From: Micropruina sp.
GTDB lineage: Bacteria > Actinomycetota > Actinomycetes > Propionibacteriales > Propionibacteriaceae
DNA length: 59,643 nucleotides
Direction of reading: 5' to 3'
Assembly: GCF_027492755.1 (NCBI RefSeq)
Contig: NZ_JAPUED010000130.1
Span: forward strand, 1-59,643
The position numbers were made by a program, and so were the translations under genes. The stretch's first letter is position 1. Each line of letters begins with the position of its first letter. Below the pieces are notes generated by a model. That model had not been told where the DNA came from, made no database searches, and saw nothing but the letters and a program-made list of their open reading frames with translations. Below are positions 31,305-34,805 of this stretch, piece after piece.

Positions 31305-31334
31305 TTGACACAGTCGGGCCCGCGGGCGAAAACT
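31305..31334 (+). promoter_or_regulatory. Promoter of the ilvBNC leader
   Basis: A perfect -35 box TTGACA (31305-31310), an 18-nt spacer and a weak -10 AAAACT (31329-31334). The predicted start of transcription is 6-7 nt on, at the GTG of the leader peptide. Confidence 0.55.
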
Positions 31335-31340
31335 GTCCAC

Positions 31341-31370
31341 GTGCGGATCTTCTTCCTCGTACTTTCGTGA
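31341..31370 (+). CDS. Candidate ilvB leader peptide, nine residues
   Basis: GTG CGG ATC TTC TTC CTC GTA CTT TCG TGA encodes MRIFFLVLS, with Ile, Leu, Val and Leu in nine residues, all end products of the pathway the operon serves. It lacks a ribosome-binding site but begins where transcription should start, so it is likely a leaderless control peptide. It is followed by a possible pause hairpin (31371-31400) and a terminator (31401-31432). Confidence 0.6.
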   Translation: MRIFFLVLS

Positions 31371-31400
31371 GCGTGTCAGCCGACTAGTCGACCGACACGC
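31371..31400 (+). promoter_or_regulatory. Hairpin after the leader peptide, possible pause structure
   Basis: GCGTGTC and GACACGC form an outer 7-bp stem around CGACTAGTCG, itself a 10-bp palindrome. It starts at the base after the leader stop codon, where an attenuator's first hairpin is expected. Confidence 0.5.
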
Positions 31401-31432
31401 ACCCTCGCCTGCCGACGCAGCGAGGGTTTTTT
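31401..31432 (+). terminator. Intrinsic terminator/attenuator before ilvB
   Basis: Perfect stem ACCCTCGC / GCGAGGGT with an 11-nt loop, ending in a run of six T. It ends 47 nt before the ilvB start. A U-tract terminator is unusual in this window and, with the leader peptide, indicates attenuation by charged Ile/Leu/Val tRNA supply. Confidence 0.75.
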
Positions 31433-31478
31433 CATGCAAGAGGAACCGCGACCAAACACCCGCAGAAAGGGGACTGAG

Positions 31479-33227
31479 ATGTCCGACACCATCGCACCAC
31501 CACTGCTGACCGGGGCCGAATCCCTTGTCGAGTCCTTGGAGCGGGTGGGTGTAGAGGTCATCTTCGGCATCCCCGGCGGCGCGATCCTGCCCGCCTACGA
31601 TCCGCTCGGTCAGTCCAAGCTGATCCGGCACATCCTGGTCCGCCACGAGCAGGGCGCGGGCCATGCCGCCGAGGGCTACGCCCTGGCCACCGGCAGGGTC
31701 GGGGTCTGCATGGCGACGTCCGGCCCGGGCGCGACCAACCTGGTCACCGCCATCGCCGACGCCTACATGGACTCCGTCCCGATCGTCGCGATCACCGGCC
31801 AGGTGGCCAGCGCCGCGATCGGCACCGACGCCTTCCAGGAAGCCGACATCCGCGGCATCACCTTTCCGGTCACCAAGCACAGCTTCCTGGTCACCCACGC
31901 CGAGGACATCCCCGGCGCGATCGCAGCCGCCTTCCACATCGCCAAGTCCGGACGCCCCGGCCCCGTCCTGGTCGACATCGCCAAGGACGCTCTGTCCAAC
32001 ACCGCGCCGTTCAACTGGCCCGAGGTGATCGACCTGCCCGGCTACCACCCGGTCACCCAGCCGCACGTCAAGCAGATCCGCGAAGCCGCCCGGCTGATCG
32101 CCGAGTCCAGCCGGCCCGTGCTCTACGTGGGCGGCGGCGTGGTCAAGGCCGAAGCCGCCGAGGACCTGGCGAAGCTGGTCGAGATCACCGGCGTCCCGGT
32201 GGTCACCACCCTGATGGCCCGCGGCGTGTTCCCGGACAGCCACGAGCTGCACATGGGCATGCCCGGCATGCACGGTTCGGTCTCGGCCGTCGGTGCGCTG
32301 CAGAAGGCCGACCTGCTGGTCGCTCTGGGCACCCGTTTCGACGACCGGGTCACCGGCCGGCTGGACTCGTTCGCGCCCGGCGCCAAGGTCATCCACGCCG
32401 ACATCGACCCGGCCGAGATCTCCAAGAACCGGATCGCCGACGTCCCGATCGTGGGCGACGTGAAGCAGGTGATCGCCGAGCTGAACGGCGTCCTGCGCGG
32501 CGCCGACCTGCCCGACTTCGGCGCCTGGCAGCGCTACCTGATCGGCATCAAGGAGAAGTACCGGGTGCCGACCGAGCCGACCCACGAGGGCATGCTCTCG
32601 CCCGAGTACGTGATCAAGCGGGTCGGTGAGCTGACCGGACCGGACGCCTACTACGCCGCCGGCGTCGGCCAGCACCAGATGTGGGCCGCGCACCTGCTGC
32701 CGTTCGAGAAGCCGGGCCGCTGGCTGAACTCCGGCGGTGCCGGAACGATGGGCTACTGCGTCCCGGCCGCGATGGGCGCCCAGGTGGGCCGTCCGGACGC
32801 GGTGGTGTGGGGCATCGACGGCGACGGCTGCTTCCAGATGACCAACCAGGAGCTGGTCACCTGTGCCCTGGAGGGCATCCCGATAAAGATCGCCGTGATC
32901 AACAACCAGAGCCTGGGCATGGTGCGGCAGTGGCAGACCCTGTTCTACGGGCAGCGCTACTCCAACACCGACCTGAAGACGCTGCGCGTCCCGGACTTCC
33001 AGAAGCTTGCCGAGGCGATGGGCGCGGTCGGTCTGCGCGCTGAGCATCCCAGCGAGGTGGACGCCGTGATCAACAAGGCGCTGTCGATCACCGACCGGCC
33101 CGTCGTGGTCGAGTTCGTGGTGCACAAGGACGCCATGGTCTGGCCGATGGTGGCCGCCGGCACCAGCAACGACGACATCAAGATCGCCAAGGACCTGGCG
33201 CCCGACTGGGAGGAAGAAGAACTGTGA
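31479..33227 (+). CDS. ilvB: Acetolactate synthase large subunit
   Basis: A 582-aa thiamine-diphosphate enzyme that makes acetolactate or acetohydroxybutyrate, the first common step to Val/Leu and Ile. N-terminal [40 protein letters not shown] (catalytic Glu within this helix region), central FAD-type domain with [15 protein letters not shown], and the ThDP motif [18 protein letters not shown]...[16 protein letters not shown] 31479 has AGAAAGGGGA upstream and yields the normal start; the in-frame ATG 31434 lies right after the attenuator. Overlaps ilvN by 4 nt. Confidence 0.96.
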
Positions 33228-33760
33228 GGACGCACACGCTGAGCGTGCTGGTCGAGAACAAGCCGGGTGTCCTGGCCCGGATCGCCGGCCTGTTCGCTCG
33301 TCGCGGCTACAACATCGAGTCGCTGGCGGTCGGGCAGACCGAGCGTCCCGAGCTGTCCCGGATCACCCTGCAGGTCGGTGTCGAGAACCAGCAGTTCCTG
33401 GAGCAGATCACCAAGCAGCTGAACAAGCTGGTCGAGGTGCTGAAGATCGTCGAACTCGAAGAGAGCGCGGTGCGCCGCGAGCTGGTGCTGATCAAGCTGA
33501 AGGCCGATCCGGTCAGCCGCAGCCAGATCATCGAGATCGTCCAGCTGTTCCGCGGCAAGACGGTCGACGTCCAGAACGAGTCGCTGACCATCGAGGCCAC
33601 CGGTTCGCCTGACAAGCTGGAGGCATTGCTCGAAATGCTCAAGCCCTACGGCGTGCGGGAGCTCGTCCAGTCCGGCCTGGTCGCCCTCGGGCGGGGCAGC
33701 AAGTCACTCACCGACCGGTCCAAATCCGACAAGACCCGCACCCCGGTGCGCAACAACTAG
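33224..33760 (+). CDS. ilvN: Acetolactate synthase small regulatory subunit
   Basis: A 178-aa regulatory subunit that binds valine and activates IlvB. N-terminal ACT domain: [34 protein letters not shown]; second domain [34 protein letters not shown] 33224 overlaps the ilvB stop (GTGA). Length is typical for actinobacteria. Confidence 0.95.
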
Positions 33761-33767
33761 TCAGTAA

Positions 33768-34805
<1,038 letters not shown>

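Follow-up and report, generated by a model that had tools for sequence, protein, structure and literature searches.

The ilvBNC genes in the window, as we call the whole 59,643-nucleotide stretch of Micropruina sp. DNA that was analyzed, are very probably preceded by a translation-dependent, leaderless, codon-reading transcription attenuator, as judged from the sequence and its relatives. This confidence refers to the attenuator as such; the steric step by which we suggest that termination is avoided is graded separately below, and far more tentatively. The attenuator is not new in kind, the leaders of Corynebacterium glutamicum, Streptomyces lividans, and Mycobacterium tuberculosis being already known, and it extends the known control of branched-chain amino acid (BCAA) synthesis to one more lineage. 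The pattern across the family could matter in its own right: a single rare Val codon is kept together with two fixed distances, without a visible antiterminator. This gives a sharp test both for an old "paradoxical" result in Streptomyces coelicolor and for the way in which ribosomes of actinobacteria, once stalled, keep transcription from terminating.

In the mechanism we propose, transcription would begin on a GTG, and a ribosome would load on the leaderless 5' end and translate the peptide MRIFFLVLS. With charged BCAA tRNAs in ample supply, the ribosome would reach the stop codon and cover the 5' arm of a hairpin, P1, and a terminator would end transcription at its U tract. When BCAA-tRNAs are short, and in particular the minor Val-tRNA that serves GUA, we infer that the ribosome would stall at CUC-GUA, that P1 would fold at its leading edge, and that RNA polymerase would read through into ilvB. 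The genes that would be so controlled were identified by NCBIfam matches and, like all features described here, lie on the forward strand: ilvB, the acetolactate synthase large subunit (31479 to 33227, ATG start; NF005860 at 1026 bits, TIGR00118), ilvN, the small subunit (33224 to 33760; TIGR00119), and ilvC, ketol-acid reductoisomerase (33777 to 34805; TIGR00465). A Shine-Dalgarno-like AGAAAGGGG precedes ilvB at 31464 to 31472.

Sampling of ilvB leaders

We sampled ilvB loci from 27 relatives and 80 named genomes, and added 67 further loci (mostly one per genus) and then 23 more. A leader was defined as a short BCAA-containing ORF followed by a T run no more than 110 nt on, with no requirement for GUA, and this rule picked one in 178 of 198 loci, a few of the picks being doubtful (e.g., that at L186). 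Among the loci without a pick, at least one, L023, has a leader that is visible by eye and was missed by the T-run rule. The set was condensed to 121 units, roughly genera. Compared in this way, the sequences bear out the promoter geometry, the leader frame, the selection of GUA, P1, and the terminator.

Promoter and predicted leaderless start

The initial annotation had reported a perfect -35, and TTGACA can indeed be read directly at 31305 to 31310. Its first T lies 36 nt before the start codon, which is the modal distance among 109 genus-level leaders with a clear -35; in 101 of these, the distance is 35 to 37 nt. A -10-like hexamer, AAAACT (31329 to 31334), follows TTGACA after an 18-nt spacer and keeps A2 and T6 of TAnnnT. 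Across the family, the -10 occupies positions -12 to -7 from the start codon, with A at -11 in 72% and T at -7 in 73%. A Shine-Dalgarno-like core is found at -18 to -4 in just 23 of 120 leaders, and that stretch overlaps the -10 anyway. Because the -35/-10 geometry is fixed and few leaders have such a core, transcription should begin on the start codon itself or no more than one to two bases away. The leaderless start is thus predicted from promoter geometry, in agreement with the transcription start that the annotation predicted on the GTG at 31341 and with the earlier suggestion that the peptide is translated without a Shine-Dalgarno sequence. A generic promoter and terminator scanner with strict rules missed both elements in the window, and support for them therefore comes from comparison. 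In the naked window leader (31341 to 31362), base pairing is possible between GUGCG at the start codon and CGUAC, which spans the control codons, and would hide the GTG.

Comparable starts are known from other actinobacteria. In C. glutamicum, the transcription start and the start codon are a single nucleotide apart (PMC11857589), and Morbach et al. (2000), as cited in PMC10272879, announce in their title that the ilvBNC leader peptide is formed without a ribosome binding site. The S. lividans IlvL peptide MRTRILVLGKRVG was found by measurement in 2021 to be transcribed leaderless (PMC8079986). The mycobacterial polycysteine ORFs (Canestrari 2020, as presented in PMC13236596) resemble the window in being short leaderless ORFs that read amino acid supply; they differ in reading cysteine and in being described there as translation attenuation.

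Control codons of the leader

The leader ORF (31341 to 31370) has its start codon on the predicted transcription start and ends with TGA at 31368 to 31370, its codons being GTG CGG ATC TTC TTC CTC GTA CTT TCG TGA. BCAAs make up four of the nine residues of MRIFFLVLS (I, L, V, L), in line with the annotation of an Ile/Leu/Val-rich peptide, and there are two Phe in addition. The conserved control codons, CTC-GTA (Leu-Val), lie at 31356 to 31361, with GTA as the anchor. The annotation had proposed comparing leaders of related genomes for conserved BCAA codons, and we found GUA in frame in 117 of the 121 genus-level leaders. GUA accounts for 59.6% of Val codons in leaders (146 of 245, with 6.9 expected from ilvB usage) vs. 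1.6% in ilvB of the same loci, and the window's own ilvBNC has GTA as only one of 110 Val codons. Other A/T-ending BCAA codons are also enriched in the leaders of these GC-rich genomes, namely CTT (34% vs. 2.6%) and ATT (55% vs. 6.7%). Taken together, the sequence comparisons support selection on the BCAA codons of the leader. GUU is much rarer than GUA in leaders although it is equally unstructured, and the preference therefore suggests a role for the tRNA decoding GUA. We also considered GUA as a signal at the DNA level. In 100 of 121 units, GUA is the codon 6 to 8 nt before P1, and most of the remainder have a different Val or Leu codon in that place; this retention favors codon reading over a DNA signal.

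Set against CTTCGTGAGCG of L014, a single additional T follows CTT (31362 to 31371) in the window and its nearest relatives. In the window's genus, this insertion probably created the early TGA, the nine-codon peptide, and the 9-nt spacer between GUA and P1. Three relatives (L005, L006, and L007) also have a short peptide, ended in their case by TAG at nearly the same position.

The P1 hairpin and the terminator

P1, located with a stem finder, occupies 31371 to 31400 directly after the stop codon (GCGTGTC/GACACGC plus inner pairs), and an intrinsic terminator lies flush with it at 31401 to 31432, comprising a hairpin (31401 to 31427) and a T6 run (31427 to 31432). Both had been annotated from the window alone, as a hairpin after the stop and a U-tract terminator before ilvB, and both gain from the family, in which P1 shows compensatory changes and the terminator stem covaries. 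The leader from 31341 to 31434 has a minimum free energy of -38.6 kcal/mol, whereas shuffled sequences reach -26.7 ± 3.4 (z = -3.6) and none of 200 folds equally well; minimum free energies, like the partition functions used below, ignore kinetics. Among 39 aligned leaders, two-sided changes occur in six of the seven pairs of the P1 stem; the covariation score is matched in 0 of 500 shuffles and is lost when the register is shifted. Arms picked blind to pairing, one at a fixed distance after GUA and the other as the last nucleotides before the terminator, also pair far better with each other inside one genome than with arms from other genera (7.00 vs. a permutation maximum of 5.94).

Two distances are held nearly constant around this hairpin. 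In 95 of 117 units, GUA is followed by the first base of P1 at a distance of 7 or 8 nt, which is the same whether the stop codon precedes P1 or falls inside it. The first P1 pair of the window is 9 nt after GTA, compared with 7 to 8 in most relatives and about 8 in S. lividans, whose ilvL has 13 codons and its stop inside P1, whereas the nine codons of the window end just before it. The gap between P1 and the terminator is 0 to 2 nt in 113 of 119 units (gaps of 0 to 15 were allowed), and P1 itself spans 24 to 50 nt (5th to 95th percentile). Negative design of the P1 loop through depletion of G was also weighed, but the depletion is modest, with 26% G vs. 29 to 33% in neighboring stretches.

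The folding of P1 is predicted to depend on ribosome position. With an 8-nt ribosome shadow, its probability is 0.92 when GUA occupies the A site; it falls to 0.42 once the ribosome has advanced by one codon, to 0.03 after a second codon, and to 0.01 at the stop. With a shadow of 11 to 12 nt, P1 forms at GUA half the time or less and forms fully only one codon earlier, at CUC; for the window, whose spacer is 9 nt long, the probability at GUA is still 0.80 at an 11-nt shadow.

Alternatively, the leader ORF may be incidental, with a protein or promoter strength controlling the genes and the terminator merely lowering basal expression. Codon substitutions in the S. coelicolor ilvB leader were reportedly without effect (Craster 1999, cited in PMC1262725), a result that counts against a codon-reading attenuator. 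We nevertheless regard an incidental ORF as very improbable, given the in-frame GUA of nearly all leaders, the A/T-ending BCAA codons of GC-rich genomes, and a P1 spacing that ignores the position of the stop. In M. tuberculosis, moreover, changing LVVI to AAAA in the ilvB1 leader abolished induction (2026; PMC13236596). The same locus yields an abundant short transcript and has ribosome footprints in its uORF (PMC13236596), and together these data give independent support for the logic of stalling and readthrough. The ilvB1 leader shares with the window a BCAA uORF with GUA as the regulatory codon; the terminated short RNA and attenuation measured in M. tuberculosis are, in the window, predicted.

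How termination might be prevented

How a stalled ribosome would keep the terminator from acting is a separate matter. The base of the terminator is predicted to form with a probability of 0.92 in the naked leader, 0.93 with a ribosome at GUA, and 0.96 with a ribosome at the stop. Across ribosome shadows of 7 to 13 nt, the terminator is predicted in every ribosome position, with a mean probability of 0.90 to 0.95. In these models, the antitermination step is therefore without a base-pairing explanation. In this respect, the description of the element as a "complete attenuator" went too far. A classical (trp-type) antiterminator, which would compete with the terminator for bases, was revealed neither by thermodynamics nor by a covariation test that took in part of the P1 loop.

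Because P1 and the terminator abut yet have no bases in common, our preferred reading of this step is steric exclusion: the edge of the ribosome, P1, and the terminator would be packed with almost no slack, such that the base of the terminator could not close. Actinobacterial ilvB leaders would then switch by geometry (7 to 8 nt, then 0 to 2 nt), without a base-paired antiterminator. We offer this tentatively, as a proposal that is, on its own, rather unlikely to be correct.

The main rival of the steric step is classical three-state attenuation through an antiterminator that we missed, in which an arm of the terminator pairs with upstream RNA either transiently or in particular lineages. It would change only the last step of the mechanism, and for that step we consider it a quite conceivable account, if short of a probable one. 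C. glutamicum ilvBNC (the ilvB-II motif) resembles the window in its leader peptide without a ribosome binding site, its Leu-Val(GUA) codons, and its P1-like hairpin followed by a terminator; it differs in that an antiterminator overlapping the terminator has been described and tested there (PMC11857589), whereas we found none in the window. For M. tuberculosis ilvB1, an anti-terminator and a terminator are proposed in PMC13236596 to be mutually exclusive. Earlier, Seliverstov et al. (2005) had described ilvB leader peptides and terminators in Corynebacterium, Mycobacterium, and Streptomyces, with antiterminators for trp and only terminators for ilv (PMC1262725). The window offers one candidate, since P1 can be extended by GUGA/UCGC into the 5' arm of the terminator while the terminator is unfinished. 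We rejected it, as the extension was seen in the closest relatives of the window alone, and it would lie under a ribosome stalled at GUA. With a ribosome at GUA, upstream RNA holds the 5' arm of the terminator before the 3' arm is made in only four of 117 leaders (21 of 117 without a ribosome). A block alignment of 92 units, anchored on GUA, P1, and the terminator, showed no prominent helices besides P1 and the terminator and gave a best third helix of 0.31, below the 95% null of 0.33 from row-permuted blocks, in a covariation test that took in the variable parts of the P1 loop only partly.

Two further pairings with the 3' arm of the terminator were set aside. Pairing with CUCGUA depends on the ACGAG found in Streptomyces, and many other genera keep CUCGUA without ACGAG. 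Pairing with the P1 loop, as proposed for ilvB-II, would occur in the wrong condition, the loop being free with a ribosome at the stop.

As an alternative last step, P1 might act mainly as a pause hairpin that holds RNA polymerase for the ribosome, with regulation by timing. The 5' arm of the terminator ends about 11 nt past P1, at a possible hairpin-stabilized pause site, and such a role has been proposed for H1 in C. glutamicum (PMC11857589). No pause consensus was recognized there by eye, however, and a pause alone explains neither the fixed distance between GUA and P1 nor readthrough on starvation; we therefore think this role decidedly unlikely.

Distribution of the leader

The same type of leader stands upstream of ilvB in more than 100 actinobacterial genera, and alignment and paired changes place the window leader with the ilvB attenuators of the Streptomyces, Mycobacterium, and Corynebacterium type. 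Like the window, S. lividans ilvL has a leaderless BCAA leader ORF, hairpins, and a U-tailed terminator before ilvB, and a peptide identical to it, with CTCGTACTT, is present in the sampled Streptomyces loci. Within the Propionibacteriaceae, the family of Granulicoccus phenolivorans, the window's leader is shared by L011 and L031. Searches with Rfam at the gathering score found no family for the leader and matched tRNAs alone in the window; below the cut-off, there was a weak antisense match to Bp2_287 (24.6 bits vs. a cut-off of 70).

A covariance model trained on 39 leaders, the window's own included, found a single copy in the window's genome, before ilvB (57.6 bits, E = 1.6e-9). The model places the element before ilvB in 35 of 37 relatives, and genomes outside its training set, Streptomyces among them, also match. 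Strong copies are found mainly inside the class, and matches outside it are mostly weak, the best being G405:C5:41226-41307 (E 8e-6) and G284:C3:200885-200949 (E 5e-5). One genome of the same family, G008, has extra weak matches away from ilvB (C1:100982-101061, E 2e-4, and C1:825658-825739, E 3e-3), which may represent other terminators or further genes under attenuation. The fragmented genome G007 has two ilvB-like stretches, L027 and L028, each with its own leader of the type described here, MHCGTSILVLDKRVG and MQQIQILVVTRRVA, and its assembly could be a mixture of two species.
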